Under the pieces are notes generated by a model that searched no databases, was not told the DNA's origin, and saw only the letters and a program-made list of their open reading frames with translations. Position numbers and translations under genes: made by a program. A stretch of DNA of 64,000 nt from Magnetococcales bacterium WMHbinv6 (GTDB taxonomy: Bacteria; Pseudomonadota; Magnetococcia; Magnetococcales; Magnetaquicoccaceae): NCBI GenBank assembly GCA_002753135.1, contig PDZV01000005.1, positions 63,558 to 127,557 of the forward strand. Reading direction: 5' to 3'. Each line of letters opens with the position of its first letter. Position 1 is the stretch's first letter. Shown in pieces: positions 9,842 to 53,672 of the stretch.

Positions 9842-12800
9842 TCAAATCTCCTTTTCTTTCCCCTCCGGGGCTGCCGGGGAACCGGAAGAGGCGGGCGCGC
9901 CGGGGGTGACCTGTACGTCCACGCTCTTGACCTCCGAACTGCCCGGCACCTTGACCTGAATGCGCAGGCTGACCGGGGCGGCTCCTTCCGGTACGGTGCC
10001 TGCTACCCGCATCGAGCTGGTGTCCAGGTGCAACCAGGAGGGAACCGGCTCGCCATTGGTTTGGGTAATGGCGGCAATCTCTCCCTCTGGGACCACACTG
10101 GAGAGATTGGCGACAAAACGGGCCCCACCGGTTACCGGCAATACCAGTGGTAATACACTGGTCGCCGTGCTGGTCGCACCATCCAACGAAAAAGATGGAC
10201 GGGCCAGAGGCGTACTCAATGAGGCCGCAGGTTGGACAAGGGAGGTTGACGCAACCATCCCGGAGTTGACCACCGAAAAGGCGTTGGTGTTGGTGTTGCC
10301 AGTGGCCGCAGAAGAGGTTGCACCACCGGTTTGCCGGGCATACTGCTCTGGATTGTGAATAAAGGCGGTGGTGATATAGCCGTTGCCGCTTTCGCTTACC
10401 TGGGAAGGCAGATAATCGTTATACCAGGTGTAAACCCGGCGGAAAGTGTAGGTCAATCCACCCAAGCGATCCTGCAACAACGGATTGTCATCATAAATCA
10501 ACCAGCGACCGTTGGGTGCCTGTACTGCCGTGGCACCGGCCTGATTCCAAAAAGCCGCCGTTGCCGACAAGACGACACTTTCCGAACCCGTGGCATTGCC
10601 CACCACCGAGCGCAAGGTGGTCAAATCAGCCCCACTGCGAACCCAAACTTTACCCCCTGCCGTAATGCCGTTCGTACCAGCAACGGTGGTAATGTCCAGA
10701 TTGCCCGTATTGTAGTAAGCGAGATCACTGCCAGTCACCGCTGCCAGGGCGTTGACCTGGTTGTTGTTGCGCAACGAGGCCGATCCTCCGGTTACCAGTT
10801 TCAAGGCACTGCCCTGTACCGTCGCTCCGCTCGCCTCGCTGATACTGCCCGTCGTCGATGTCAACTGGATCGTGCCGTTGCTGGTGGTAATGCCGGTTAC
10901 GCCACCAACCGTGCCAAGCTGTAAATCGCCCACGTTGCCGAAGGTGAACCCGGCCCCGCTGCCGCTGACATTGGCAGCCAGATTGGCCACACTGTTGCTT
11001 TGGGAGAGAGTAACCGGACCCGTGGATTGAATGCGCAACCCTTTGCTGGCCGTACTCACGGTCACCACCGCGCCACTCGTCTGGGTCAATGTGCCGCTGT
11101 TGGTTAACAAAATATCGCCGCTGTCGGAGGTCAGGCCCGAGGTGGTGCCAGCCGCGTCGCTGCCTTGCGTGCTGGTGACGCTGCCAATGACCAGATTGCC
11201 ACCGTCGCTGAGGGTCAAGGTTTTACCGGCATGACCGGCAATGGTACCCATGACATTGCTCGGCGTACCACTCAAAGTGACCAGGCCACCGGCATCAAAA
11301 CGCAACTGGCTCGAAGACAGTTTGCCGGTACTCTGAATAATATCGTTGCTGGCCCCGGAACCAGCCAGCAAAGTCAGTACGGCACCGGTTACGTTGGCCC
11401 CCAACGCCTGACTGCCCGACGCCTTGAGCGTGACATCGGCGCTGCCGCCGTCGATGGCTTGATTGATGGTTAAATTGCCGGCACTGACCGTCAAACCGAT
11501 CACATTATTGGTGGTCGTCAAACCGGATTTGCTGGCAGCAATGGTATGATCCAGTGTTGAGGCACTGTTTTGGGCTGTCACCGTACCCACGATCAAATCG
11601 CTTGCCGCCTGACGCAACCAGATCACCCCTGGCGTCTGTACCGCCAGCGTATTGATGCCACTGCTTTCGATGCGGTTTGCATCGCTGCCGATATAACCAT
11701 CCGCCGTCAGCAACAGGTTGCCGGTGCTCACCAGTTCATTGCTGGTATTGGTCGCACTGCTGGTGGTGATATTGCCGCCGGATACCAGCTGTAACGCACC
11801 GCTGCTGCTGCTGATCACCGCATTATTGTTGAGAGAAACATCTCCTCCATTGCCAGCGGATGCCGTACGAAGATCGACAATGCCGCTGCCATGGGCGGTG
11901 ATGTTTTGTGTTACCGTCAAATCGCCGCCTTGCGTCGTCAGGGTGATTTGGCCGTTATTGGCCGTGCTGCTTAAACCAGACAGGCTGGCAGCGTTGCTGA
12001 CCGTGCCGTTGATGGCATTATCCAGCACCGTTGCGTTGACCCGGCTGACCGTCCCTACCTCCAGATCACTGCTGCTGCCCAGTTTGCGCAACCATAAGCT
12101 GTTGGCACCACTGCTCACCCCATTGCTCAAAGTGCGGGCGGCCAAAATGGCGGCATTGGCCAGTTGAATCCGGTTGCCATCGGCACCCATACTCAAACCG
12201 GCCTCCAACAACACGTTACCAGCGGTATCGATGGTCGGCACACTGCTGTTGTTGGCGCTGTCGGTGCTGATGGTGTTGCCAGCAATCAAGGAGATGGTAC
12301 CACTGCTGCTGGCAATTTTGGCCCCGTTGCTCACGGCAACATCACCCAGATTGCCGGCATTGGCGGTGCGAAGGTCAACATAACCACTGCCATGGGCGGT
12401 GATATTCTGGGTAATGCTTAAATCTCCACCCTGGGTGGTCAGGGTGATGGTGCCGTTGTTGGCGCTGCTGGTCAAACCGGAGAGGCTCGTGGCGTTGCTG
12501 ACGGTGCCATTGATACCATTATCCAGGGCGGTACTATTGACCTGGCTGACCGTGCCGACTTCCAGATTGCTGGTTGTCCCCAGCTTGCGTAACCATAAAC
12601 CGCTGCTGCCAACGTTGCTCAAGGTGCGAGCCGCCAAAACTGCCGCATTGGCCAACTGAATGCGGTTGCTGTCGTCACCGATACGCAACCCCGCCTCCAG
12701 CAGTACGTTGCCGGTGGTCTCCAGGGTGGGCACACTGCTTACATTGGCGCTTGTGGTGCTGATCGTGTTGCCGGAGATCACGGCAATGGTGCCACTGCTG

Positions 12801-15800
12801 CTGGCAAGTTTCGCCCCGTTGCTGATTGAAACATCGCCCAGATTGCCTGCATTGGCGCTACGAATGTCAATATAACCGCTGCCATGGGCGGTAATATTCT
12901 GCGTAATGCTCAGATCACCCCCCTGAGTGGTCAAGGTGATGCTGCCGTTATTGGCCGAGGTGGTCAAGCCGGAAAGGGTGGTGGCGTTGCTGATGGTACC
13001 ATTGATGGCATTATCCACAACGGTGTTGTTGACCTGACTGACTGTGCCTACCTCCAGATCGTCACCGCTGCCCAGTTTGCGCAACCAGATGCCACTGGTG
13101 CCGCTATTGCTCAGGGTACGGGCCGCCAGAATGGCTGCATTGTCGATCTCCAGACGGTTGCTGTTCGTGCCGATACTCAAACCAGCTTCCAGCACTACGT
13201 TACCCGAGGTATCGATACTGGCGGTTGCCGAATTGGCGCTGTTGCTGGTGATGGTGTTGCCCGCGATCAACTGAATGGTGCCGCTGCCGCTGCTGATTTT
13301 GGCACTGCTGATGGCAATATCGCCCAAATGTCCACTATTGGCAGTACGAATATCCACATAGCCACTGCCGTTGGCGGCAATGTTTTGGGTGACGGTCAGA
13401 TCGCCTCCCTGGGTGGTGAGGGTGATGGTGCCGTTGTTGGCGCTGGTGGTCAATCCAGACAGAGTGGCGGCGTTGCTGCCGGTGCCGTTGATGGCATTAT
13501 CCAGAGCCGTCGCATTCACCCGGTTGACCGTGCCAACCTCCAGATCACTCGAGTCACCCAACTTGCGCAGCCACAGAGCGTTGGCCCCACTGGTCGTACC
13601 GTTGCTCAAGGTGCGGGCCGCCACAACGGCAGCATTGGCCAACTGAATCCGGTTGCCGTCGGCCCCCACACTCAACCCCGCCTCCAACAACACGTTACCG
13701 GTGGTATCGAGGGTTGGCACGGTGCTGTTGTTGGCGCTGTAGGTGGTGATGGTGTTGCCGGCAATCACAGAGAGGGTCCCGCTGGTACTGGCAATTTTGG
13801 CCCCGTTGCTGATCGCAACATCACCCAAATTGCCGCTGTTGGCGGTGCGAATATCCACATAGCCGCTGCCATGGGCGGTGATGTTTTGCGTAATACTCAA
13901 ATCGCCACCCATGCTGGTCAGGGTGATGGTGCCATTGTTGGCCGAGGTGGTCAAACCGGACAAACTGCTGGCGTTGCTTGTTGTACCGTTGATGGCATTA
14001 TCCAGGGCGGTCGCATTGACCTGGCTGACCGTACCCACCTCCAGGTCACTGGTGTTGGCCAATTTGCGCACCCAGATGCCACTGCTCCCCGTGTTGCTCA
14101 AGGTACGGGCGGCCATGCGGGCGGCGTTGCCGATCTGGATCCGGTTGCCATCGGCACCGATACTCAACCCGGCTTCCAACAAGAGATGGCCAGTGGTGGC
14201 CATATCGTTGCTGGAGCCATCATTGCCGCTGACTGTGGTGATGGTGTTGCCTGCGATCACCTGCACCGTACCGGAGCTGCTGCTGATCGTGGCACCGTTC
14301 AAGACAATGTCACCCAGGTTGCCCGCATTGGCGGTGCGTATATCCACATAGCCGCTGCCATGGGCTGTGACATGCTGGCTGATGGTCAGATCACCCCCCT
14401 CTGTGGTCATCGTCAGGGTGCCGTTATTGGCGGTAGTGGTCAAGCCGGAGAGGGTATTCACCGCCACAGCCTGGGTTGCATCCACGCTGCCTGCCGCATC
14501 GGTCACCGTATTGGCCTGGACAATACGGGTCACGGTACCGATGGTCAAATCATCGCTGCTGCCCAGCTTGCGCAGCCACAGGTTACCGGCAGAGGTGGCT
14601 GCCAGGGTCGAGACATCGGTCAATTCGATGCGCTGACCGTCTGCACCGGTGTTGCGTCCCGCCTGCAGCAACAGGCTGCCGGAAGTTTCCACCTCCGAAC
14701 CGGTGCCGTTATTGGTATTGGTGCTGATGTCACGGCCTGCAGCCAGTTGAATGGTGCCACCGCCAACGCTTTTGACTGTGGCGCTGTCGTTGATGGCCAG
14801 ATCGCTGGAAGCACCGGTGGCACGCAGATCGATGGTGTTGGCAGCAGCGCCGTTGGCGGTGATGCTCTTGCTGACGGTCAATGAACCGGCCAAAGTGTAC
14901 AGATCAATGGTGCCGTTGGCGGTGCTGATGCCATCCACCGCTGTGCCGGAAACCGGTGCCAGAGTGGAGGTGTTGACACTGCTGGCCGGGGTTACTGAGG
15001 CAACCGTCAAAGCATCGGCATCACGATAGCTGAAATTTTTGCTTGAGGCGGCCAAAACCGCCGCCAGCGTACCAGCATTGTTGCTGGCATTCTGCAGCGT
15101 CACATGCCCGTTATCGGCCTTGAGCAGCAAAGAGCTGGTGATAATATCCCCCAGGGTATTGGCCTGCTGGGTAATGTCTCCCGTTTTGGCATACAGCACC
15201 ACCGTGCTGCTGCCCCCGGCGATACCGTTGCTCGCTGTGGGAGTTGCCCCGGTGGTGTTGGCAACGGAACCGATCAGGATGGCATCATTTTCAGTAAAAT
15301 AGAATCCCTTGTTGCTGCCGGTAAGAATTGCCGAAACCGCGCCAGAACTGCCGGAAATGAGGTTATCGTTGAGCAGGGTGGAGTTGTCGTTGGCCTTGAC
15401 CAGCAACTGGTTGGCGGTGATGAGCGCCCCACTGACTTCGTTGACACCGCCGGTTCCGCTGGCACCCGCCCACAATTTGACCGTATAGCCGCTGGCGGCA
15501 ATGCCGGTCGAGGAGATAAAATTGCTGGCATCCCCGGCGGTGCCCAGTTGCAAGGCATTTTTATCCACCACGCTCAATGTGCCACTGCCACCGGTTAAGG
15601 TGGCGGCCAATTTGCCGAAATCGTTGGCACTATTTTCCAACACCACACTGCCGGGCGTCCTGATATAGAAACCGCCGGTGGTGCTGCTGCCGGTGACCAC
15701 GGCCTGTGTCTGGGTCAGATCCCCGGCAACCAATTGCATGGCCACGTTGCCTGCATTCAGGGTCAAACCGTTGACCGTCGTGGCCCCGACCGTGACCGCG

Positions 15801-18800
15801 CCGATCACCAGGCTGTCGTCATTTTTAAAATTAAGATTTTGGCCACTGGCCGTGATTTCACCGGCCAGGGTATTGACCACATTGATATTGGTCAGGGTCG
15901 ATGTATTGCGGGCATAAAGACGCAATTTGTCTGCGGTGATGATCGGTACCGCCGTGCCGGTTTCGTTGACTGCTCCAGCCGAGGCCACCAGGCTGACGGT
16001 ACCTGTGCCGGTATGGATGTTTTGCTTGACGGTAATATCCCCCGCTGAGGTAGAGAGGGTAAGATTTTTATTGTTGGCGGTGACAATACCGGTCGCCGTC
16101 GCCGTACTGCCCAGCGTTTCGCTGGTCACCTGATCGATGGTCAGGGCCTGGGCATTGCTCAAGGTGATATTGCCGTCATAGCTGGTGCCATCGGCAGTGC
16201 CCGGACCACCGGCAACCAGAATATCGACAAAATTGGTGCCGGTCAGCGAAACGTCGCCGCTGCCGATCAAACGCAGATTATGCACGCTGATCGCGCCTGT
16301 TCCCGTTGCCCCGCTTTGGACATGCAGGGCCAGGGTGCGGGATGAACCACTACTGCTTTGCACGGTCAATGGTGAATTGATCACCACATTTCCCCCCGTG
16401 CCCATCATGCGCAGATTCAGGGGATCATAGACCGAGGTGGTACCGGCAACGGTCAGCGTTTTGGTTGACTCGGTCCCGGCCACCGCATAGCGCCCGATGG
16501 TAATATCACCAAACCCTTCAGTAAATACGGCGTTGCTGCCGGAAAAAAGGGTGCTGGCCAAATAGAGAGGATTGGTCGGTGCCGTCAAATGGGCCGAATC
16601 GGGCGAAGGCGGCGAGGCTTCACTGCCGCCAATCTGAATGTTGATGTCATGGTAGGGGCGAATGTTCAACTGTCCGGTGCTGAGGTTTGATCCGGAACGG
16701 GCTCCGGTCATGCGCATGCGGCTGGTGGAGGTGTTGACAAACTTCATCGTATCGGCCACCAAATCGATATTGCCGGTAAAAGGACGAGCCGATACCGCCG
16801 CTTTGGCGGTGGTGGTATCCCGTTCCTGTCCCAGGGCCATGTCGTCGCCACTGGCATAAATGCCGTAGCTGGTGGTTTTACCGCCGGTCAGACCGGTCAG
16901 CAGAATGTTACCGGTTTGGGAGACTATTTGCGTATCGGTATCCTTGATTTTGATACCGTAATTTTCGCCTACCTGACTGGCGCTGCCGCCGCCACCGGTA
17001 CCGGTCAAGGTAATGTTACCGGCAATGCTGCGAATCATCGCCGCCGATTCGATGTCGATACCATTATAGCTGGCCCCTGCCGTGGCGCTGGTACCGGCGC
17101 TGCTGGCATCACCAGTGATGGTGATGGCACCGTTATCGGTTTGCAGGGTCACGGTTGCACCACCGTTTTTGCCGATCACCACGGCATCTTTGGCAGAACT
17201 GGAAGAGGGTGTGCTGACGCCACCGTTGATGGTCAGCGTGCCGGTGCTGTCGCTGCTGCTGTTACTGGTAGAGAGCGTACCCTGGCCGTAAATGTACACC
17301 CCCAAACCACCAACCTGGGAAGCAGTCCCGAAATTATCCATCACCGGTGCCCGTCCCCAAATTTCCAGGTTACCGCCACTGGTGTAGATGTTGCTCTGAT
17401 AGATGCGCACCCCGTCTGTATTCTGTTCCGAAGCGACACCATAGGCCATGTTGCTGACATTACCCAAACTGATGTCGGCCCCATAGGATTTGATCTGCGC
17501 GTTATCCAGATAGATGGAGCCGGAGTTAATCGCTCCCCCCGTACCGGTAAATTGTGCCGGACGGAAATTGACGGTCAGCGCCTTTTGTCCGGCAATGGCG
17601 TTGGTTGCGGTATTGTAATAGTCGCCGGTAATTTTACGCTGCTGGCTGGAAGAGCCGACCACCTGAATCGAACGGTCCGACTGGATGGTCAAGGTCGGGT
17701 TGGTCAAAGCGCTGCTGGTGACAATGTCAAAGGTGGACTGCACATAGTCGGCACTATCGACGCTGCTGCCCCCGGATACACCGGTAACACTGATCGTGGT
17801 GGTATTGGTGCCAAGCACCAGTTTGGGAATATAGTTGGTGCTGATGGTGCTGAAGGTCAGCACGTTACCCGATGAAGCCTTGAAATTCATCGAACCGGTA
17901 TTCAAAAAGGTGTAGGTCGGTCCGGTAATTGTCAATGACCCCAATGGGTTGGATGAGGTACCCACCGAGTTGTTGAAGGTGATGCTCCCTGCCTGGTTGC
18001 TGCCGCCACTCACCGCACCGGTGGTGGTCAAAATCAGTTGCTGTGGCAACAAAACGCTGTTGGAATAGAGCTGATCGTTGAAGGTAATGGCCCCACCGGT
18101 ACCGGTATAGGTGGCTCCCGATTTGGCCGATTGGGTATCCAGGGTGACGGTGGAACTGGCCTGGTTATAGAGTTCAACCGTTTTGTTGAAGGTAATGGCC
18201 CCGGAAGCGCCCGTATCACCGGAAGTCAACCGTTTGGTCGAAACCGGCGTGGCACTGATCAACTGCGCGGCTTTGTGAAAGACCACATCACCGCCGTTGC
18301 TGGCCACGCTGCCAGAGATGATGGCGGTACCGGAATTGTTGCTGGATGTGCCAAAATTGACGCTTAAGGTGCCACTGGTCGAGGCGACGTTGACCCCGGA
18401 ACTCAAGGTGATGTTGCCAGCTGCATCGAAGGTCAGCGTAGAGGCTCCGCCCCCGGTTTTGCTGATATTGGCCCCGATGGTAATGTCACCCGTCGCCGAC
18501 AAGGTGACCGATGCCCCACGGGTCAACACTTCATCGATCGAGGAGTTGTACACCGACACCGTACTGCCCGCTGTATAGGAGAGCGGGCTGGCGGCATTGG
18601 TCGGGTCCACATCGACATCGGTGGTCACGCCGGTGATGGTGATATTGTTCGGGTCGAGCAGCCAGTTGCCCCCTTTGCCGTTCTCTGCCGAAACATCCAC
18701 CGAACCCTGCACCCCCAAAGCACCACGGCTGGAGGTTTCCAGCTGCCCACCTTTGCCGTTTCCGGCCCCCTTGGCGGAAACAGCACCATTCATGCGGGTG

Positions 18801-19921
18801 ATTTCACCTGACCAGGCAACCACCGTACCACCGTCGCCGTTTTTCGTTGCATCGGCGCTTACCTTGGCCCCTTTTTCTATGGTAACCCTTTTGGCTTCGG
18901 CAATGGTTTTATCTTTGCCCTGCCAGCCTCCACCGAGATTGACCGTACCCCCACCGGCGGCCCCAGAGGCATCGACCACCCCATCTTTGGCAACCGTCAC
19001 CGTATCACCGGTGGCAACCACCCGACCTCCGCTGTCGCTTGCCCCTTGGCCACGGGCTTCGGTACTGCCCGACAAACGGACCTCACCGCCGCTCCCTTCA
19101 ATCCACACTTCGCCATTTTTGTTGGCCAAGGTGTTGGCCCGCACCACACCGCTCTGATTGACCGCCGTTGACAACACCGGCGAGGCGGTTTTGGCCGTCA
19201 TCCATACCCGACCACCATCGGCGATGACCATGCCGCTGTTGTTGACCTTGGCTCCTTCGCCTGCTGTATCCACCTTGACGCTGATCAAACCGTTGGGGGT
19301 CAGGTTCACGGTTGCCTCTTTACCGGCTGCCATGGCTACCTGCCCTTTGTCGGCACGAATCACCCCGGCGTTGTCCACCGAACCACCAACCAGGCTGACA
19401 AATCCCCCCTCCTTGGCTGCCAGTTCACCCAGGTTGCTGACCGTAGCGCTGCCGCCGGAAAACTGGTAGTTGCCCGACTGCAGATCGGCGTTGGATAATT
19501 TCATCGCCGCAGCGGTCAAACCGGCGGTATCAACTTTCGCCGAAGGGCCAAAATAGACCCCGTTGGGGTTGACCAGAAACACCTGGCCGTTGGCGCTCAT
19601 TTTACCATAAATCTGCGACGGATCCGCCGACAACACCTGGTTCAGGGCCACCGAATTGGCAGCAGGCTGCACAAAGGTGACGCTGGCATCCTTGCCGATG
19701 TTAAAGCTCTGCCAGTTGGCCACCATGGAAGGGGTGTTCTGGGTAACCGTCATCGCTGCCCCAGCCTGTTTGATCGCCCCTTGTCCGCCAACAACCTGGC
19801 CACCTGTGGGCAACGCGGTCGCGGCGGGTGGTCCGGCGTGGGTCAAGGTCGGCCACGTAGCAACCACGGCTGCCAATAACAACATGCGACCGTGTGGTGT
19901 GTTACGAGTGGATCTGCTCAT
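9842..19921 (-). CDS. TpsA-type filamentous-haemagglutinin-like adhesin, 3359 aa
   Basis: Secreted exoprotein of a two-partner secretion pair. Residues 1-29 form a Sec signal peptide (cleavage after THA). Residues 30 to about 280 are the TPS domain: NWQSFNIG, then NPNGVYFG near 115-123 and repeated GG/N-rich strands that nucleate a beta-helix. The bulk is Ser/Thr/Gly/Asn-rich beta-helix, including seven units of about 165 residues. Near 3130 the motif GRWLIYDDNP, common near the C-terminal end of such proteins, appears. The last 100 residues resemble a putative Ig/cadherin-like domain (PSWLHLDTSSMRVAGTVPEG). The ATG at 19921 has GGGGAG at eight bases; a longer frame overlaps tpsB and is rejected. 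It lies 17 bases after tpsB, at the end of the export operon. Role: probably adhesion or biofilm (inferred). Confidence 0.9.
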   Translation of the reverse strand: MSRSTRNTPHGRMLLLAAVVATWPTLTHAGPPAATALPTGGQVVGGQGAIKQAGAAMTVTQNTPSMVANWQSFNIGKDASVTFVQPAANSVALNQVLSADPSQIYGKMSANGQVFLVNPNGVYFGPSAKVDTAGLTAAAMKLSNADLQSGNYQFSGGSATVSNLGELAAKEGGFVSLVGGSVDNAGVIRADKGQVAMAAGKEATVNLTPNGLISVKVDTAGEGAKVNNSGMVIADGGRVWMTAKTASPVLSTAVNQSGVVRANTLANKNGEVWIEGSGGEVRLSGSTEARGQGASDSGGRVVATGDTVTVAKDGVVDASGAAGGGTVNLGGGWQGKDKTIAEAKRVTIEKGAKVSADATKNGDGGTVVAWSGEITRMNGAVSAKGAGNGKGGQLETSSRGALGVQGSVDVSAENGKGGNWLLDPNNITITGVTTDVDVDPTNAASPLSYTAGSTVSVYNSSIDEVLTRGASVTLSATGDITIGANISKTGGGASTLTFDAAGNITLSSGVNVASTSGTLSVNFGTSSNNSGTAIISGSVASNGGDVVFHKAAQLISATPVSTKRLTSGDTGASGAITFNKTVELYNQASSTVTLDTQSAKSGATYTGTGGAITFNDQLYSNSVLLPQQLILTTTGAVSGGSNQAGSITFNNSVGTSSNPLGSLTITGPTYTFLNTGSMNFKASSGNVLTFSTISTNYIPKLVLGTNTTTISVTGVSGGSSVDSADYVQSTFDIVTSSALTNPTLTIQSDRSIQVVGSSSQQRKITGDYYNTATNAIAGQKALTVNFRPAQFTGTGGAINSGSIYLDNAQIKSYGADISLGNVSNMAYGVASEQNTDGVRIYQSNIYTSGGNLEIWGRAPVMDNFGTASQVGGLGVYIYGQGTLSTSNSSSDSTGTLTINGGVSTPSSSSAKDAVVIGKNGGATVTLQTDNGAITITGDASSAGTSATAGASYNGIDIESAAMIRSIAGNITLTGTGGGGSASQVGENYGIKIKDTDTQIVSQTGNILLTGLTGGKTTSYGIYASGDDMALGQERDTTTAKAAVSARPFTGNIDLVADTMKFVNTSTSRMRMTGARSGSNLSTGQLNIRPYHDINIQIGGSEASPPSPDSAHLTAPTNPLYLASTLFSGSNAVFTEGFGDITIGRYAVAGTESTKTLTVAGTTSVYDPLNLRMMGTGGNVVINSPLTVQSSSGSSRTLALHVQSGATGTGAISVHNLRLIGSGDVSLTGTNFVDILVAGGPGTADGTSYDGNITLSNAQALTIDQVTSETLGSTATATGIVTANNKNLTLSTSAGDITVKQNIHTGTGTVSLVASAGAVNETGTAVPIITADKLRLYARNTSTLTNINVVNTLAGEITASGQNLNFKNDDSLVIGAVTVGATTVNGLTLNAGNVAMQLVAGDLTQTQAVVTGSSTTGGFYIRTPGSVVLENSANDFGKLAATLTGGSGTLSVVDKNALQLGTAGDASNFISSTGIAASGYTVKLWAGASGTGGVNEVSGALITANQLLVKANDNSTLLNDNLISGSSGAVSAILTGSNKGFYFTENDAILIGSVANTTGATPTASNGIAGGSSTVVLYAKTGDITQQANTLGDIITSSLLLKADNGHVTLQNASNNAGTLAAVLAASSKNFSYRDADALTVASVTPASSVNTSTLAPVSGTAVDGISTANGTIDLYTLAGSLTVSKSITANGAAANTIDLRATGASSDLAINDSATVKSVGGGTIQLAAGRDISTNTNNGTGSEVETSGSLLLQAGRNTGADGQRIELTDVSTLAATSAGNLWLRKLGSSDDLTIGTVTRIVQANTVTDAAGSVDATQAVAVNTLSGLTTTANNGTLTMTTEGGDLTISQHVTAHGSGYVDIRTANAGNLGDIVLNGATISSSSGTVQVIAGNTITTVSGNDGSSNDMATTGHLLLEAGLSIGADGNRIQIGNAARMAARTLSNTGSSGIWVRKLANTSDLEVGTVSQVNATALDNAINGTTSNASSLSGLTTSANNGTITLTSMGGDLSITQNITAHGSGYVDIRTANSGNLGDVAISNGAKIASTSGTLSVIAGNTITTYSANNSTVPTLDTTGNVLLEAGLSVGADGNRIQLANAAVVAARTLSNGTTSGANALWLRKLGDSSDLEVGTVNRVNATALDNAINGTGSNAATLSGLTTSANNGTITLTTQGGDLTVTQNIAANGSGYVDIRTANSGHLGDIAISSAKISSGSGTIQLIAGNTITSNSANSATASIDTSGNVVLEAGLSIGTNSNRLEIDNAAILAARTLSNSGTSGIWLRKLGSGDDLEVGTVSQVNNTVVDNAINGTISNATTLSGLTTSANNGSITLTTQGGDLSITQNITAHGSGYIDIRSANAGNLGDVSISNGAKLASSSGTIAVISGNTISTTSANVSSVPTLETTGNVLLEAGLRIGDDSNRIQLANAAVLAARTLSNVGSSGLWLRKLGTTSNLEVGTVSQVNSTALDNGINGTVSNATSLSGLTSSANNGTITLTTQGGDLSITQNITAHGSGYVDLRTANAGNLGDVAVSNGAKIASSSGTISLIAGNTISTDSANNSSVPTIDTAGNVLLEAGLSMGADGNRIQLANAAILAARTLSNGVSSGANSLWLRKLGSSSDLEVGTVSRVNATVLDNAINGTVSNAASLSGLSSTANNGQITLTTQGGDLTVTQNITAHGSGIVDLRTASAGNGGDVSLNNNAVISSSSGALQLVSGGNITTSSATNTSNELVSTGNLLLTADGYIGSDANRIESSGINTLAVQTPGVIWLRQAASDLIVGTVTAQNSASTLDHTIAASKSGLTTTNNVIGLTVSAGNLTINQAIDGGSADVTLKASGSQALGANVTGAVLTLLAGSGASNDIIQSTGKLSSSQLRFDAGGLVTLSGTPSNVMGTIAGHAGKTLTLSDGGNLVIGSVTSTQGSDAAGTTSGLTSDSGDILLTNSGTLTQTSGAVVTVSTASKGLRIQSTGPVTLSQSNSVANLAANVSGSGAGFTFGNVGDLQLGTVGGVTGITTSNGTIQLTSTTGSISEASGATVQGSALKLVTGGSASLRNNNQVNALAAVTGSDLAYYNTGNLDITTVAGTNGITAGGKVWVRSGADLTTLRSVVGNATGSESVVLSATAAFWNQAGATAVQAPNGRWLIYDDNPLLQDRLGGLTYTFRRVYTWYNDYLPSQVSESGNGYITTAFIHNPEQYARQTGGATSSAATGNTNTNAFSVVNSGMVASTSLVQPAASLSTPLARPSFSLDGATSTATSVLPLVLPVTGGARFVANLSSVVPEGEIAAITQTNGEPVPSWLHLDTSSMRVAGTVPEGAAPVSLRIQVKVPGSSEVKSVDVQVTPGAPASSGSPAAPEGKEKEI
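11510..14935 (-). repeat. seven imperfect tandem repeats of about 490 bp inside the adhesin gene
   Basis: The same coding block recurs with spacings of 501, 492, 486, 501 and 489 bases, measured on the GCCGTTATTGG-type marker at 11951, 12452, 12944, 13430, 13931 and 14420. Each unit encodes about 160-167 residues containing SGLTTSANNGTITLT, GGDLSITQNITAHGSGYVD, GNTITT, LLEAGLSIGADGNRI, WLRKLG and DLEVGTVSQVN. The flanking first and last units are more diverged. Copy number could change by recombination. Confidence 0.85.
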
Positions 19922-21978: not shown

Positions 21979-22760
21979 GGATCATTTCCGTTCGTAGAGA
22001 AGTTGATACGGCATCGCTGCCCGGGGGGCAGTTCAAAATTGGGGTTCGATAACAACAAACGCACCCGAAAGGTGGCGCTGGCCGCATCGATCACCCGATC
22101 AATGGTGGCCACACGCGCCTTCTGTTTGCCACCTACCAGTTGTGGAAGCACCTCATAATTTTGATCGAGGTGAATCCGACCAAAAAAGGTGGCCGGTACC
22201 ACCGTTTCCACATGCAACGGATCCAGTTGGGCGATGCGGAAAATTTTTTCCTGTTTCACCAGATCACCGCGATTGCGATAACGATCGACGATGACCCCGC
22301 GAATCGGGCTGAAAATGGAGCGCAGCATCACCTGTTCCCGGCGTTCCTTGAACTCCAGCTCCGACAATCTTTGTTCGGTGGCAATTTCGTCCAGCTCCTG
22401 ACTGGAGATCAGCTGTTGCTTTTGCAGATCAACGTTGCGCTTATATTTGCGCGCACCATAGGCAGCTTTTGCCTCCTGCACGTTGGCCGCCGCCACCTGT
22501 ACGGCGCTGTCCAGTTTGGCCAAAAGTTGGCCCCGATTGACAATATCCCCACGATCAACGTTGACGACATCCAATGTGCCATCGGCAGGACTGCCGACGT
22601 TAACCTCTATGGATGGTTCAATCAGACAGCTGACTTCGCCGGCAACATTTTTGTCAACCATGGCCTGTGCCGTGGCCAAGGGGAGAGCGGAGGGCTCCGC
22701 CGCCAAGGGGGAGGTTGCATAAAACAGCGAAATAACACAAAGAGATAATTCGCTTCTCAT
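21975..22760 (-). CDS. small periplasmic HlyD/RND-type membrane-fusion adaptor
   Basis: A 261-residue adaptor with a Sec signal peptide (ELSLCVISLFYATSPLAAE). The lipoyl/biotinyl halves flank a short coiled-coil hairpin: first half IEVNVGSPADGTLDVVNVDRGDIVNRGQLLAKLD, hairpin AAANVQEAKAAYGARKY to LEFKERREQ, second half RSIFSPIRGVIVDRYRNRGDLVKQEKIFRIA. A beta-barrel domain follows (LDPLHVETVVP, FRVRLLLSNPNFELPPGQRC). It lacks a transmembrane anchor and the hairpin is short. The start at 22760 overlaps the SecA-like stop by four bases, and its own stop overlaps the tpsB start by four, so it is coupled to both. It may bridge the inner-membrane components to an outer-membrane partner (inferred). 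Confidence 0.85.
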   Translation of the reverse strand: MRSELSLCVISLFYATSPLAAEPSALPLATAQAMVDKNVAGEVSCLIEPSIEVNVGSPADGTLDVVNVDRGDIVNRGQLLAKLDSAVQVAAANVQEAKAAYGARKYKRNVDLQKQQLISSQELDEIATEQRLSELEFKERREQVMLRSIFSPIRGVIVDRYRNRGDLVKQEKIFRIAQLDPLHVETVVPATFFGRIHLDQNYEVLPQLVGGKQKARVATIDRVIDAASATFRVRLLLSNPNFELPPGQRCRINFSTNGNDP

Positions 22761-24754: not shown

Positions 24755-26904
24755 ACGGCAAACCGCTTGAGAAACATTTGCCGTATCCCACGATACCACT
24801 GCAAGGCCAACGGAGCATCGGGATGGACAAAGCGGACATAAACCCGATTGCCAAGAGAAGAGGGCACGGTTCCCTCTTGAAACGCCAGCTCAAATTGAAA
24901 CAACGAAGAGAGCGCCTTGGGTTCTGTTCCGTGCTGCGCGCTCGGATCAAGACCAATGGTGCCACCGCCTGCCAGAGACAAGGCCATGCTGGGCAATTCA
25001 CTGGTTGCTGCCGGCACCTCGCGGACGATGCGCGCCGCCAAAAGCTGCCAAATACGATCCACCGAGCGCAACTCAACGGCACGTGTCTGGCGTCTCACCT
25101 GATCCACATTGCCCTGCGGCACAACGGTCAACAAGGTAAAACGGGCCGTATCCAACAAATAGCCCACCACTTCACCCCGTTGCAAAAAACGTCCGGGAAA
25201 ATCTCCCGGTGCCACCATGACAAATTTGCCGGCATGCGGACTGCGGATGGTCATGGCTGCCAGCCGATGTTCTGCATCGGTCAGTTGGGCGGTAATCTGC
25301 TCCCGTTCGGCCTGAATCATTTGCGTCTGCACCCGATCTGCGGTCATGGCCAAGGCAATGCGGGAATCGATCTCTGTTTTCCTGGCCCGCAGTTGCGCCA
25401 CTTGCGCCTCAAGTTCTGGATCCACGCACAACAACAACGCCTCTCCCCGCTCTACCTGAGTGCCGGATGCAGCCAGTGCCTGCTGACCAAAACAGTTGAC
25501 CGGGGCCCGCAGTCGCGACTCCTCCGGCATCCAGACCACCCCTTCGGTCATGGTCCAATCCGCTACCGGCAGAAAAAAAACGGGCAACAACACGAGCGCT
25601 GTCGCCGCAGCACTGATCAGAATGGCTCGTCCCCGCTGGCCATGCAGTGTCTGGTCACGCACGAGAAAGCGCAGATTTTTGCCGATCGGCTGCAACAACA
25701 TCGTCCAGGTTGCCCAGACAGCCAGCAGTACGCCAACAATGAAATAGTTGCCAGCCACCAACAAAATAATGCCCAATGAGAGCAGAATACGGTACACAAA
25801 CGAAGTCAGGGCATAGCCGATCAGCCAGGGAGCCTCGCCAGGGGTCAAAGGGGGCGGAAAGGCCTGCTCGCTGCCAAACAGATGGCGGTTGATCCAATAG
25901 CCAAGATATTGATTCGCTTTCTGCCCCAGGTTGGCAATCTCCACGGCGTCGGCAAAAATATAATAGCCGTCAAAACGAATCAGCGGGTTAAGGTTGAAAG
26001 CCAGTGTGGTCACACCCGCCAGCAGAATAATCTCATGCAGCAGGGCACGACCGGGACCAGGCATACTCCAACTCCACAACCAGACAGCGACTGCAGCAAC
26101 GGCCAATTCGGCCATCATCCCGGCTGCCCCTACCAGCATACGGTGATATTTATTGACAAAGGCCGAGGAAGAGGAGACATCCACATAAGGAACCGGCACC
26201 AGCACCAAAAACATCAGACCCGTTTCATGGCAGCTTCCCCCCAGCAGTTTTACCGCCACACCATGCCCCAGTTCATGGATCGCCTTCAACACGGGAAAGG
26301 CCAACCAGAGCAGGAACATGTTTTCCGGGGTAAAAACCTGCAGGGTCATATCGGCGGTCAACTCCCGCCAATGCAAGGCTGCCTGCATCAGAGCAGACCC
26401 CACCAGCAACAGCCAACCTGCCAACAACCAACCCAGCAAGGGACGAGGCAAAAAGGCGCAAATAACGGTCAGCAAGCGATCCGGATCAAAAAGGGGCAGT
26501 TTGAACGATAACGGATTGCTCAGGTATTGCTTGAACCGTTGCCAGCGCAACCGTTGCCGCCGTTCACCCAACTCCTGCAGATCAGCCGGGCGATCGCTCA
26601 ACAGCACGTTGGCATGATACAACTGATTGAGCAGTAACAAAATTTCATCCTGGGTCGGTGCCCGGTCGCCGTCACGATCACACAAAAACTGCCAAATTTC
26701 ATCCAGAGTACGCTGACCATCACACAAAGCCAGCACGCCATAGGCTACCGCGTTCAGCCGCAAAAAACGCCCACTGGCGCGATCCTGCAGAATCCACCAC
26801 CGTTCGCCCCGGTAAAGATGGCGAACCACCCTTGCCTGGCTGCGCAGGCGGGGCCGTAACGAAGCGACCCGATACCAGGAGTTGGAAAAAAGGGCTGAAC
26901 TCAT
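24751..26904 (-). CDS. PqqD-like domain / M50 zinc metalloprotease / HlyD fusion
   Basis: A 717-residue inner-membrane protein built from three parts. Residues about 20-110 resemble PqqD (RERWWILQDRASGRFLRLN-type start, LCDGQRTLDEI, then a winged-helix end), a fold known as a peptide-leader recognition element. Residues 140-460 contain about nine membrane spans with the M50 zinc site HELGH at 210-214 and NPLIRFDGYY at 306-315 supplying the third ligand. About residues 480-717 form a periplasmic HlyD-type adaptor: APVNCFGQQALAASGTQVERG, a short coiled-coil hairpin (VAQLRARKTEIDSRIA and EREQITAQLTDAEHRLA), then IRSPHAGKFVMVAPGDF. It starts three bases after the GAF-HlyD stop. Such proteins are annotated as putative peptide zinc metalloproteases; the substrate here is probably the upstream giant (inferred). 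Confidence 0.87.
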   Translation of the reverse strand: MSSALFSNSWYRVASLRPRLRSQARVVRHLYRGERWWILQDRASGRFLRLNAVAYGVLALCDGQRTLDEIWQFLCDRDGDRAPTQDEILLLLNQLYHANVLLSDRPADLQELGERRQRLRWQRFKQYLSNPLSFKLPLFDPDRLLTVICAFLPRPLLGWLLAGWLLLVGSALMQAALHWRELTADMTLQVFTPENMFLLWLAFPVLKAIHELGHGVAVKLLGGSCHETGLMFLVLVPVPYVDVSSSSAFVNKYHRMLVGAAGMMAELAVAAVAVWLWSWSMPGPGRALLHEIILLAGVTTLAFNLNPLIRFDGYYIFADAVEIANLGQKANQYLGYWINRHLFGSEQAFPPPLTPGEAPWLIGYALTSFVYRILLSLGIILLVAGNYFIVGVLLAVWATWTMLLQPIGKNLRFLVRDQTLHGQRGRAILISAAATALVLLPVFFLPVADWTMTEGVVWMPEESRLRAPVNCFGQQALAASGTQVERGEALLLCVDPELEAQVAQLRARKTEIDSRIALAMTADRVQTQMIQAEREQITAQLTDAEHRLAAMTIRSPHAGKFVMVAPGDFPGRFLQRGEVVGYLLDTARFTLLTVVPQGNVDQVRRQTRAVELRSVDRIWQLLAARIVREVPAATSELPSMALSLAGGGTIGLDPSAQHGTEPKALSSLFQFELAFQEGTVPSSLGNRVYVRFVHPDAPLALQWYRGIRQMFLKRFAV

Positions 26905-26907
26905 CGG

Positions 26908-28767
26908 TCAGATCCCGAACAGAGCCCAGAGATGCAAGCGAAGCCACGCCAGCAGGCGATGGCTGCCAATCCACAGCCAACGTTCCCGCCCGACGTGGAT
27001 TTTGGCTATTCCTTCCATGCCGGGACGTAAACGTTCATCGGGTGCGTTCAGTGTGGCTTCAACACGAAAATGGTTGCTGCCATCGGAGGTGGTTGCCACC
27101 GGTGTAATCAGGGATACCCGGAAGGCAAAGGTCTCTCCCGGCAGGGCGGTAACCATTAATGTACCGCTCTGCGCGTCAGTCACCTGAGCAATATCGGCCT
27201 CTTCGACCTGCAACACCACCCGATAGGCATCCAACGGAGCAATTTCAAACAAAGTTTGCCCCTTTTTTACTGCCCCACCCAAATGTTGCGACAAATCGCC
27301 ACTGACCAGCAATCCGGCAAAGGGGGCCGTAATGCGCGCCCTGGCCATCATCGACTCATAAAGCTCCCGCTGCGCTTCGGCCTGTTTCGCCTGGGCTTTG
27401 GCAATCTGAATCTGGGCCAGATTGTGTTGTGCCTGGGCGTCGTCCATCTGCTTCTGGTATTGCTGCTGTTGGCTGGCCCAACGCAAGGATTCCAGACGCA
27501 TTTCCCGATCATCCAGGCGGGCCAGTTCCTGACCTGCTGCCACCAGTTGACCGGCACGTAACCGGGCGGAGGCGACAAAACCATCATACGGGGCCACAAT
27601 CACCCGCCGTACGCTCCCTTCCAGCAGGGCTTTGGCCGACAGCCGATAATCCCCATAAGCAAAAAAACCGGCACCAATCGCCAGCAGCAGCACCAAGCCC
27701 AGCAGTTTGCGTAACCCTTCACCGGGACCAAACAAACGACGCCATTCATTGGCCAACGCATCGCGCAGACGCCCTCGCCAATGGCGACCAGCCTGTTGTC
27801 GTTCCACCAACACCAGGCCCAGTATCGGTGCCAACGCCTCTGCCTGGCGCACCCGTGCAGTCGCCTGGGCCGCATCAGGCCACTCGAAGAGAAAAACCCC
27901 CTCTTGCCGTCTGCCGGTTTCACCCGTGGCAAACGGGACCGAAAGGACAAACTCGGTCCCAAAATCACGGATCAATCGCTGATGTTCGCGAATATCCAAC
28001 CAGGAGGGGGCACTCTCCTGCCCGGTCGCGCGCTCTTCTTCGATCGGATAGAGCCCGGCCCGCACCGTGGTCGATTGATCAAGCGCCTCGTGCATGGCCG
28101 CTTCGATTGCTGCCACCAGATCAATGCGTTTGGCCACTTCTGCGGCATGCGACAAGGCGGCCAAACGAATCGATCCCTTTTTGGCAAAGCCCACCGCTAC
28201 CCGATCACAACCCAAACGGGAAGCCGCTTCCGTGGCAACCGCATGCACCGCCTCTGCTGCCCGATCTGTTTCCATGGCAACCCGAATCAAATCCAAAACC
28301 AGCAACAACCGCTCCTGCAACTCGGCAGACTCCTGCTCTGTCTGACTCTGCCACAGCCGTTCCAGCCACCCTTCCCCCCAGCGCAGCCAACGTCCGGCAG
28401 TTGGCGGGACGGCACCATGCAACGAAACGGCCACGACTGCCATCACCACCCCATCACGCAGCAACGGTTGCACCAGCATGCTGCGCCCGCCCCGCTGTCC
28501 ATGCAACGGACGACGAACCGCCAGAGCCTGTTCGCACAACTGCGCCAAATCGGCAGAGACCTGTTTGCTCTCTGCAGGCCAGAATGCCTGTGGCCGAAAC
28601 AGCCCGGAAAGCGGGTCAAGCACCAGCAAAACCGCCTCCTGCACCGACTCACCCAGCCCGGCAACCAGACAGTTCAACCAGACAACGGCCTGGTCCTCAC
28701 CCTCGCCGCTGCCAAGCAGGCTCCAGGAGTCGATGGTAGAAACCGACGGATTCATCGCTCCTGTCAC
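26908..28767 (-). CDS. GAF-domain / HlyD-family membrane-fusion protein
   Basis: A 619-residue inner-membrane protein. Residues about 30-120 and 150-310 look like two GAF-type sensor domains in the cytoplasm (ASRLGCDRVAVGFAKKGSIRLAAL; EFVLSVPFATGET). One transmembrane helix follows at about 362-382 (LLGLVLLLAIGAGFFAYG), then a periplasmic HlyD adaptor: RRVIVAPYDGFVASARLRAG, a coiled-coil hairpin (LRWASQQQQYQKQMDDAQAQ onward), ARITAPFAGLLVSGDLSQHLG and a beta-barrel domain ending LRPGMEGIAKIHVG. A last hydrophobic stretch lies at the C-terminus. The start is uncertain: GTG 28767 has no clear ribosome site, while ATG 28755 has AGGAG only two bases away. It begins 14 bases after the giant's stop. 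Cytoplasmic GAF domains suggest ligand-gated control of export (inferred). Confidence 0.85.
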   Translation of the reverse strand: MTGAMNPSVSTIDSWSLLGSGEGEDQAVVWLNCLVAGLGESVQEAVLLVLDPLSGLFRPQAFWPAESKQVSADLAQLCEQALAVRRPLHGQRGGRSMLVQPLLRDGVVMAVVAVSLHGAVPPTAGRWLRWGEGWLERLWQSQTEQESAELQERLLLVLDLIRVAMETDRAAEAVHAVATEAASRLGCDRVAVGFAKKGSIRLAALSHAAEVAKRIDLVAAIEAAMHEALDQSTTVRAGLYPIEEERATGQESAPSWLDIREHQRLIRDFGTEFVLSVPFATGETGRRQEGVFLFEWPDAAQATARVRQAEALAPILGLVLVERQQAGRHWRGRLRDALANEWRRLFGPGEGLRKLLGLVLLLAIGAGFFAYGDYRLSAKALLEGSVRRVIVAPYDGFVASARLRAGQLVAAGQELARLDDREMRLESLRWASQQQQYQKQMDDAQAQHNLAQIQIAKAQAKQAEAQRELYESMMARARITAPFAGLLVSGDLSQHLGGAVKKGQTLFEIAPLDAYRVVLQVEEADIAQVTDAQSGTLMVTALPGETFAFRVSLITPVATTSDGSNHFRVEATLNAPDERLRPGMEGIAKIHVGRERWLWIGSHRLLAWLRLHLWALFGI

Positions 28768-28781
28768 CTGCTGCCAAAGGT

Positions 28782-50438
<21,657 letters not shown>

Positions 50439-50798: not shown

Positions 50799-53672
50799 TT
50801 AATCGTTGCGCAACAACGAACCCAAATCTTCCAGATCGGTCCGATTCAAACTGCCGACTGCCTGTTTGAGGCGTAAACGATTGACCAGATAGTCGTATCT
50901 GGCCTGCAAATAATCCCGTTTGGCCGAGAAAAAGAGTCGGTACGCATCGACAACATTGACGATATTGCTTGTTCCCAGCTTGAGCCCCTCCAAACGGGCC
51001 TGCAAAGCACTATCCTGCGCTTTCACGGTTTTGCGCAAAGCAAGCAGGGAACGGGAACTGGCTTGCACCACCAAAAAGGCCGAGCGGGTTGCTCTTTCCG
51101 TATGACGCAACTCTTGCTCTCTTTCCTGATCCACCTTGTCTTTACGAGCCGATGCTTCGCGCACCAGGGAGCGGGTCATTCCTCCCTCAAACAGAGGCAT
51201 GTTGAAGCGCAAACCCAGCTCTTTGTTCTCTGTCGTTTGCCCATCACCATACAATGAACCGCCAGAGTCCTGGCGAGCCATTGAGCCGACCAGATTGAGC
51301 GTGGGAAGATACCCTGCCTGTTGGCGCATAATTTCCAGATCGGCAATCTCCGTGGCCAGAGTGCGCGATTTCAAGGCCAGATTTTGTTCAATGGCGGCCT
51401 GCACCCAGGAATCGGCCCGATCAGGCTGGGGTGCAGGGGCATCAAAATCCCCACGGAAGCCACGCACATCATCCACCCGCACGCCGACAATTTCTTTGAG
51501 TGCCTGCAAGGCATCATCATATTTGTTGCCGGCATCAATTTCGTGTGCCTCGGTGACGGCAAAACGGGCTTCCGTATCATGCAACTGGGTGATGGTACCC
51601 AAACCCTGGGCCAGGCGGGTACGCGCCAGCTCATACTGTTTTTCCGTGGCTTCCCGTTCTGCCTGCGCCAGTTCCCGCCCATCTTTTGCTGCCAGCAGGT
51701 TCAGATAGGTCGTGGCCACGCGCAGAATTAAATCCTGCTCGGCTGCCACCAGATTGACTTTGGCCTGTTCCGCAGCCAAAGATGCCTGATCCATCTTGAC
51801 ATAGGCTTGCGCTTTCAAAATCGGCTGGGTAATGGTCAAGGTCTGGCTGTTGTTAGCATAACTCGATGCCCCCGTCGGGAAAGAGGGGTTGGCAGCGTGC
51901 AGCACATTCTGCTGAACCTTGGAATATTGATAATCAAAGCTGGCCGCCGGCAGATAGCCGGCACGCGCTTGCGGCACCGCTTCGCTATTGGCCTCATAAT
52001 CAGACTTGGCGGCAAGATATTTTGGATCCCGGTCCATTGCCTGTTGCAGCATGCCCATCAGGTTAAACGTTGTCCCTTTGCTGGGGGCAGGCGGCCTCTC
52101 TTTGGCCCAACGACCCTCCAATTGCACCGGACGAACGGTCAAACTGGGACGGGATTGATCCCCCTCCTCACGCAGATTACGACGAAAACGTCCATCAAGC
52201 GGATCACGGCCCTCCATTTGCGAAGAATCGGCAATGGTTTTGTCGCTGGATAATGGCGTCCGCAACGCCAACGTCAGGGTACGCTGCAACTGATCATCAA
52301 CCTTCTGGGCATTCATGGTCTTACTGATCAGGGTGGTCGGACTGGCCAACTCGGCTACCAATCGTCCAGAACCCAGACGGGTTGTCTCAACCCGCAAGCT
52401 GCGCACCGCCGGATGGGTGGGAACATAGGCTGCAACCACCTCGGTCAACTGTTTGGGCGACCAACCCAAAAAATCGACAATCAATTGTGGCGGTTCATCG
52501 ACAGTATAGGCATTGATGCGACTTTCATTCACCCCTTGCAGGGCAATCTCCAACCGACCAGCCAGCTCATCCATACGCAAATCGGTCAAACCGGGCTGTT
52601 GCGCCATCTCAGCGCTCGGCATGGCATCTGGTGCCAACCCGACCAAAATCCGTCCCCGGTCCCCATCCATAACCCCGGCACTGCCAATCAGATCCACGGA
52701 CTCCTGCAGATCAAAAACCAGCTGATAGCCCTTTTTTGCGGCAGAAGAGGAGGCCATACCCGGCAATCCGGCTGGCAGAATCAGTTGTTCACCCTTGTTT
52801 AAAGGCGCATCAAATGCCGCCTGGGTATTGGAAAAACGTTTTGGGTTGGCCTCGGCCACCATCAGAATGAATCGCTCCCGCACGGCACCGGAACCGGGAT
52901 AACGGTGGCGGGAAATCATCCGCAAGGTGGTAGGTTGATCGATGGTCAACACGGATTGCGCTTGCGAAGAGGGAGCAGGAGCGCCCCCTGCCTCTGCAAC
53001 ACGCACGCCACGAATCAACGGGTTATCCGGGGCAAAATGGCTTGCCGTCGCAATCAACTGCTCACGAGGCACGCCAGGAAGTTCCACCAACACGCGCGGC
53101 GGATTTTCCTCAAACGAAACTTCCGCCACCAAACCACTGCTGCCGTTGAGAATCAGGTCGGAACGACCACCGCGAGCAACCAGTTCCATGGAGGTCAAGG
53201 CAGGTGCTGCCAACGCCATATCGGGAACCCGATTATCGGTAGGCCCCAAAAGCAACTCCCAGCGGGAACGATTTTGACTGGTCGCCACAACGGTCTCATC
53301 GAAGATGGAGACCGGGGCCGCCAACTGCAGAACCAAACGAACTTTGTTGTCTCGTCCAGGCAACACATGGAGCCCACGAACCAGCGCAGGACGCTGCTGC
53401 AGGGCGTCAACCAACCCGGCCAGCTCTTTGCTGTCAACATCGACCAGTTCGACGGTTACTTCACTGCCGCGAGCAGTCAAAGTTGCTCCAGAGAGGACAC
53501 CTATCCGCGATTCAATTTGCACGCGCAACAGATCACCTTCGGCACGCAGCATGAAGCCGGAAACAGCGCCCTCCTCTGACCAGGCGCTTGATGAACTTAG
53601 CGTGCAAAAACAAGCGATTGCAAGCAAAGAGGCTCTTATTTTCATTGTTTGGCGCTTTAAGCTGGTTTTCAT
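50799..53672 (-). CDS. AMIN-domain / TolC-family outer-membrane factor fusion
   Basis: A 957-residue protein with a Sec signal peptide (MKIRASLLAIACFCTLSSSSAW, cleavage near WSEE). Residues about 35-540 contain repeated AMIN-like beta modules (LRVQIESRIGVLSGATL, RLVLQLAAPVSIF, SDLILNGSSGLVAEVSF, QLIVDFLGW), a domain type that binds peptidoglycan or secretin-type machinery. About residues 560-957 form a TolC-type channel: AMDRDPKYLAAKSDYEANSE, coiled-coil helices with QARAGYLPAASFDYQYS, a second half with QQAGYLPTLNLVGS and GLRFNMPLFEGG, and helices through YLQARYDYLVNRLRLKQAVG. TolC itself is about 470 residues, so the AMIN half doubles it. The start is uncertain: ATG 53672 (AGAGGG 11 bases upstream) or ATG 53645. 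It lies upstream of the giant on the same strand and is the likely outer-membrane exit. Confidence 0.87.
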   Translation of the reverse strand: MKTSLKRQTMKIRASLLAIACFCTLSSSSAWSEEGAVSGFMLRAEGDLLRVQIESRIGVLSGATLTARGSEVTVELVDVDSKELAGLVDALQQRPALVRGLHVLPGRDNKVRLVLQLAAPVSIFDETVVATSQNRSRWELLLGPTDNRVPDMALAAPALTSMELVARGGRSDLILNGSSGLVAEVSFEENPPRVLVELPGVPREQLIATASHFAPDNPLIRGVRVAEAGGAPAPSSQAQSVLTIDQPTTLRMISRHRYPGSGAVRERFILMVAEANPKRFSNTQAAFDAPLNKGEQLILPAGLPGMASSSAAKKGYQLVFDLQESVDLIGSAGVMDGDRGRILVGLAPDAMPSAEMAQQPGLTDLRMDELAGRLEIALQGVNESRINAYTVDEPPQLIVDFLGWSPKQLTEVVAAYVPTHPAVRSLRVETTRLGSGRLVAELASPTTLISKTMNAQKVDDQLQRTLTLALRTPLSSDKTIADSSQMEGRDPLDGRFRRNLREEGDQSRPSLTVRPVQLEGRWAKERPPAPSKGTTFNLMGMLQQAMDRDPKYLAAKSDYEANSEAVPQARAGYLPAASFDYQYSKVQQNVLHAANPSFPTGASSYANNSQTLTITQPILKAQAYVKMDQASLAAEQAKVNLVAAEQDLILRVATTYLNLLAAKDGRELAQAEREATEKQYELARTRLAQGLGTITQLHDTEARFAVTEAHEIDAGNKYDDALQALKEIVGVRVDDVRGFRGDFDAPAPQPDRADSWVQAAIEQNLALKSRTLATEIADLEIMRQQAGYLPTLNLVGSMARQDSGGSLYGDGQTTENKELGLRFNMPLFEGGMTRSLVREASARKDKVDQEREQELRHTERATRSAFLVVQASSRSLLALRKTVKAQDSALQARLEGLKLGTSNIVNVVDAYRLFFSAKRDYLQARYDYLVNRLRLKQAVGSLNRTDLEDLGSLLRND

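Follow-up and report, generated by a model that had tools for sequence, protein, structure and literature searches.

A module of SecA_DEAD, HlyD, Peptidase_M50 and GAF proteins was predicted by Kamneva et al. in 2015, with the SecA-like protein proposed as its ATPase and the M50 protein as its inner-membrane part (PMC4452313). Kamneva et al. report no ABC transporter for the loci; no cargo is assigned to the module, and an exit channel is present in some loci only. A term search of the main text gave no match to Magnetococcus, giant or LEPR, and no AMIN domain in the passages returned. An outer-membrane channel with an N-terminal half of three AMIN domains has been described separately in PilQ of Myxococcus xanthus, where the three domains are required for polar recruitment. 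In both PilQ and AmiC, AMIN domains are responsible for recruitment to the septum or poles, although exceptions in Neisseria and A. baylyi show that AMIN is not always polar, and the authors suggested that localisation through AMIN may reach beyond type IV pili (PMC10653833).

The stretch of DNA analysed here (the window) comprises 64,000 nucleotides of a contig from Magnetococcales bacterium WMHbinv6 (PDZV01000005.1). At positions 21975-28767, GAF-HlyD, M50-HlyD, SecA-like and HlyD genes stand in a row, which corresponds to the locus of Kamneva et al.; an OEP gene is sometimes present in those loci. The window differs from them in that its TolC-type protein is fused to AMIN domains (AMIN-TolC) and in that FhaC and FhaB belong to its sub-lineage (Table 1). 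It also differs from PilQ, which is a secretin ring, whereas AMIN-TolC is of the TolC type and the pore halves are unrelated. The module, as a prediction from 2015, and AMIN domains on the channel PilQ were thus already known. The joining of AMIN to TolC, linked to LEPR-XLL giants and FhaC/FhaB in one clade, is apparently new and is unreported in the open-licence papers searched. In that literature we found no paper describing AMIN fused to TolC, OEP or an outer membrane efflux protein, and none tying the LEPR-XLL motif, which two of the papers name, to a secretion module. We propose that AMIN-TolC is probably the peptidoglycan-anchored exit channel of a dedicated exporter for the adjoining LEPR-XLL giant protein.

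Table 1. Features of the AMIN-TolC gene and its neighbors, in window coordinates
Feature	Position	Strand	Basis
AMIN(x3)-TolC fusion, 957 aa from first ATG	50799..53672	-	ORF list, Pfam/NCBIfam scans
Putative signal peptide region	53574..53672	-	judged by eye from sequence; first helix in AF2 model
AMIN-type domain 1, under Pfam threshold; homolog of repeats 2 and 3	53238..53561	-	hhalign, AF2 fold
AMIN-type domain 2, interrupted by insert; repeat recognised by Pfam in relatives	52626..53207	-	Pfam in relatives, profile search, hhalign
Insert within AMIN 2, possibly LysM-like (FimV type)	52734..52985	-	alignment, AF2; weak sequence support
AMIN domain 3	52251..52589	-	Pfam PF11741 over cut-off at 52338-52559
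Disordered linker, AMIN repeats to channel	52074..52250	-	pLDDT mostly <50
Complete TolC protomer with two OEP repeats and four barrel strands	50814..52064	-	Pfam, AF2, structure and sequence alignment
Giant protein of 7218 aa with LEPR-XLL motif (NF012209), DUF4347, cadherin-like/Big repeats and weak RTX repeats; putative cargo	28782..50438	-	motif/domain scans
GAF-HlyD fusion, 619 aa	26908..28767	-	Pfam
PqqD - M50 metalloprotease - HlyD fusion, 717 aa	24751..26904	-	Pfam/NCBIfam
Short SecA-like ATPase, 680 aa	22757..24799	-	Pfam/NCBIfam
Third HlyD-type adaptor, 293 aa	21975..22856	-	Pfam/NCBIfam
FhaC/ShlB-type two-partner transporter, 679 aa	19939..21978	-	Pfam
FhaB-like two-partner exoprotein, ~3360 aa from likely ATG; longest ORF to 20152	9842..19921	-	N-terminal sequence, not domain search

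The AMIN-TolC reading frame has no internal stops and extends to 53672 from the first ATG or to 53681 from a TTG (957-960 aa). About 500 N-terminal residues, made up of three AMIN-type domains and a linker, are followed by a full-length TolC. The C-terminal half matches Pfam OEP in two stretches (1.2e-52) and NCBIfam TIGR01844 (type_I_sec_TolC) at 296 bits against a cut-off of 225. Residues 540-956 align end to end with the mature E. coli TolC chain 2-418 (E 7e-46; ~28% identity), and Foldseek comparison of this half with TolC structures gave E-values of 1e-24 to 1e-21. E. coli TolC and TIGR01844 therefore match the whole C-terminal half with both OEP repeats, whereas E. coli TolC lacks the ~500 residues that the window protein adds at the mature N-terminus. 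In AlphaFold models (mean pLDDT 74.6 and 74.4), a strand-helix-strand pattern occurs three times and is followed by the disordered linker and a complete TolC protomer; with a pTM of 0.41, the full model does not fix where the AMIN arms sit with respect to the barrel. A trimer would have nine AMIN domains in the periplasm, tethered by flexible linkers. A promoter and terminator scan gave nothing above chance.

Pfam yields AMIN alone in the N-terminal half, which speaks against its belonging to another family. PF11741 is the sole AMIN match passing the Pfam threshold in the window protein, at residues 375-448 and just over the cut-off (23.9 against 20.5 bits); in relatives of AMIN-TolC the AMIN scores are 28.5-45.3 bits, and several of these proteins have two matching stretches. 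An alignment of 12 N-terminal halves resolves three units of ~105 residues each, and a profile built from it gave a single significant match among PDB sequences, to E. coli AmiC (4BIN; E 2e-4). The hhalign comparison of repeat 2 with repeat 3 gives E 4e-16. Repeat 1, which Pfam misses, matches both of them with a probability of 94-95% and E ~1e-7, compared with ~1% or less for a column-shuffled repeat 1. AlphaFold predicts three similar strand/helix sandwiches. In Foldseek searches the model of this half matched AmiC 4BIN with prob 1.00 and E 0.012 (115 columns at 3.8 A), and it matched a model of PilQ with prob 0.84 and E 0.010; every match had an E-value of at least 0.001 and unrelated beta-rich proteins reached similar E-values but low probabilities. 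Together, the Pfam match, the N-half profile, the hhalign result for repeat 1 and the AlphaFold and Foldseek results point to three AMIN-type domains, not one. AmiC, the best match in both structure and sequence, shares the AMIN domain with this half, but has one such domain joined to an enzyme where the window protein has three joined to TolC. The first-pass annotation had described a TolC-type channel fused to a long AMIN-like N-terminal half, and Pfam (OEP and AMIN), TIGR01844, the profiles and AF2 all confirm this. The AMIN region that it placed at residues 35-540 has the right range, except that residues ~478-538 are the disordered linker. A frame of 853 aa, about the size of PilQ and with three AMIN matches, lies on the same contig as the window (G000:C16:4646-5581).

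The second AMIN-type domain contains an insert of 80-90 residues, predicted to fold as strand-helix-helix-strand, that alignment and AF2 place in the window genome and two sister genomes only. It has zero Pfam or NCBIfam matches. By eye it looks like the LysM domain of FimV, with weak statistics: an hhalign probability of 4.5% compared with 0.2% or less in shuffles, and an hmmsearch E-value of 0.005 from a database of only three sequences. Proteins with FimV_core (LysM) occur several per genome among these Magnetococcales, with up to five in the window's genome.

SPOR is a domain family that binds wall material at the septum. Two further TolC-type proteins of the window genome have ~500 extra C-terminal residues each (G000:C46:171674-174733 and G000:C35:18067-20964), and both contain SPOR (25.2 and 22.9 bits against a Pfam cut-off of 21). 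The C35 protein also has a Cds6_C/NTF2-like domain, and two HlyD-like genes lie behind its gene. Head to head with it is a second giant frame, ending at the contig edge, with DUF4347, cadherin domains and the LEPR-like motif LEARMMFDG. Together with AMIN-TolC, these two proteins indicate that wall-binding domains have been joined to TolC more than once here, with different domains and at opposite ends.

The distribution of the fusion was examined by searching 398 Pseudomonadota genomes with the N-half profile and with a PqqD-M50-HlyD profile. Full-length matches to the N-half (at least 133 bits) were found in 13 genomes; the remaining matches scored 39 bits or less, mostly covered one repeat, and had ORF sizes mostly fitting AmiC-type amidases. 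Twelve of the 13 genomes belong to the window's own order and the thirteenth (G303) to another family; a targeted search of the order of G303 added one genome of the same family (G510), giving 14 in total. A contig scan with the N-half returned six loci, all in Magnetococcales, using one short pattern that does not bound the real spread; contigs in the window's group that carry the N-half include Candidatus Magnetaquicoccus inordinatus UR-1 and other Magnetococcales. Spread of the fusion on plasmids was also considered, and no match was found. The 13 top genomes for PqqD-M50-HlyD (at least 928 bits) are identical to the 13 AMIN-TolC genomes, and G510 scored 963 bits. Maximum-likelihood analysis of 33 M50 proteins placed all 14 from AMIN-TolC genomes in a single clade (100/100). 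The co-occurrence counts few independent events, since the fusion genomes fall within two groups of related genomes, and because the sampled genomes are related we argue from this single clade rather than from a Fisher test. These results lend good support to the proposal that the fusion is another sign of a dedicated machine: among the 398 genomes it is present in precisely those 13 whose PqqD-M50-HlyD belongs to one clade, and in most of them it lies beside a LEPR-XLL-type giant.

Gene labels in relatives denote matches to the window proteins, not curated annotation. The order in the window, G001 and G037 is TolC, giant, GAF-HlyD, M50-HlyD, SecA-like, HlyD, FhaC, FhaB, and that in G510 and, as far as read, G303 is TolC, giant, FhaC, FhaB, GAF-HlyD, M50-HlyD, SecA-like, HlyD. 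In G041 the genes from GAF-HlyD through FhaB are followed by TolC, placing it at the opposite end of the cluster; the contigs of G002 and G005 end before the whole order can be read. That the eight genes stay together despite a changed order between lineages argues for a functional unit. TolC immediately precedes the giant gene in the window, G001, G002, G003, G037, G038, G040, G303 and G510, with LEPR-XLL-like giant N-termini, and the gap is roughly 20-60 bp in G303, G510 and G040. The first-pass annotation had asked whether such fusions always neighbor giant-protein genes; they do in most fusion genomes, but "always" is too strong, as in 3 of the 13 (G042, G044 and G045) TolC is on a different contig from the module and not near a giant gene. 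The co-occurring module and adjoining giant genes also rule out a placement mostly beside ordinary efflux pumps. FhaC is beside the module in every AMIN-TolC genome whose contig reaches far enough; G042 and G044 have FhaC, but no FhaB-like N-terminus was found in either.

In the giant protein of the window, LEPR-XLL lies at residues 41-60 and exceeds the curated cut-off of NF012209 (23 against 17 bits), a feature shared with the LEPR-XLL proteins; DUF4347 is next, and the cadherin-like/Big and weak RTX repeats come later. The giants of relatives have similar motifs near their N-termini (LEPRFMLSGE, LEQRLLLSGE, MEPRYLLSGE and LEQRFMLSGD). Giant genes at AMIN-TolC loci range from ~6200 codons (G510) to ~14,900 (G037), the latter figure calculated from open stretches that were read piecewise and agree in frame. 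The giant protein looks like a surface adhesin, and gene linkage suggests that it is the cargo of the exporter. The HELGH and FDG motifs of PqqD-M50-HlyD are invariant in four aligned proteins, and no HlyB-type ABC transporter was found among the six machine proteins scanned with Pfam.

Modules without AMIN-TolC were found in 11 other genomes, which have GAF-HlyD and M50-HlyD, in most cases also the SecA-like protein (not seen in G186 and G331), and usually an adjoining very long ORF. Neither AMIN-TolC nor FhaC was present in the stretches read around these modules, and TolC genes near them were identified with Pfam OEP. In G155 an ordinary-sized TolC frame of 461 aa and a long ORF starting with a LEPR-like motif (LEERLLLS) are followed by the GAF-HlyD to HlyD genes in the same order, and in G331 a 461-aa TolC frame is adjacent to the module. 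Because related modules manage without AMIN, AMIN is best seen as an add-on; ordinary TolC in these modules is what would be expected of a general exit channel to which AMIN was added later in one branch. The FhaB/FhaC pair is inherited together with the module clade that has AMIN-TolC and was not seen beside AMIN-less modules. We interpret it as a separate system for surface proteins that is passed on along with this sub-lineage.

Under the proposed model, AMIN domains would bind peptidoglycan and hold the channel in the wall, by analogy with AmiC and PilQ, and they may recruit the channel to the wall at the septum or poles, the role that three AMIN domains play in Myxococcus PilQ. Domain content suggests that PqqD could recognise the N-terminal leader of the giant and the M50 protease cut it, while the SecA-like ATPase would drive export, HlyD-type adaptors would bridge the inner membrane and the TolC tip, and TolC would be the way out for the giant adhesin. 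A channel held in the wall would follow from the role of AMIN in AmiC and PilQ (PMC10653833), and the idea gains from the two SPOR-TolC fusions. The fusion points to the cargo and the exit channel of the 2015 module, as the TolC gene, the LEPR-XLL giant gene and one module clade are inherited together. More tentatively, these components may represent a distinct wall-anchored system for giant-protein secretion in Magnetococcales and a second Pseudomonadota family, with a SecA-like motor, a protease-adaptor that reads LEPR-XLL, HlyD adaptors and AMIN-TolC at septal or polar peptidoglycan. More broadly, the TolC of giant exporters may repeatedly have gained AMIN or SPOR.

The AMIN half might instead be chiefly a localisation tag that sends the exporter to the septum or poles for display of the giant, rather than a mechanical anchor. 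We consider this conceivable but somewhat doubtful. The insert in three genomes, with its weak resemblance to the FimV LysM domain, is in its favor, as are the two other TolC proteins of this genome that carry the septal wall binder SPOR. So is the septal and polar recruitment by AMIN in AmiC and in PilQ, likewise with three AMIN domains in M. xanthus, although the Neisseria and A. baylyi exceptions count against it (PMC10653833); the localisation idea of the PilQ authors would here be carried over to a TolC channel. It is unlikely that the AMIN half serves as a docking scaffold for GAF-HlyD and PqqD-M50-HlyD or takes up the giant chain in the periplasm. Such a role would fit the co-inheritance with one M50-HlyD clade and the correlated divergence (r = 0.90), but that correlation is also expected from shared ancestry, and the same HlyD fusions occur without AMIN. 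The AMIN-less modules with an ordinary-sized TolC, as in G155 and G331, argue against AMIN as an obligatory dock.

Two further explanations would detach AMIN-TolC from the giant. FhaC, which lies beside the module in every AMIN-TolC genome with a long enough contig, could be the exit pore of the giant while AMIN-TolC serves another substrate; this is improbable, as FhaC usually has its own adjoining FhaB-like partner gene, the giant had no two-partner signal in scans, and AMIN-less modules with long neighboring ORFs show no FhaC in the stretches read. It is more improbable still that the fusion is a general TolC for ordinary efflux or type I secretion that lies by the giant gene through chance. 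Its channel half is typical of TolC and it is away from the giant gene in three genomes, but the fusion and this clade of the module occupy an identical set of 13 genomes among the 398, the spacing to the giant gene is tight in several of them, and the window genome holds many other OEP proteins.

The window genome also carries a paralogous second cluster of GAF-HlyD, M50-HlyD and SecA-like genes with an ordinary TolC-type frame of 572 aa (G000:C26:22240-30848). Its SecA-like gene appears as two overlapping frames of 430 and 257 aa, possibly through a frameshift.
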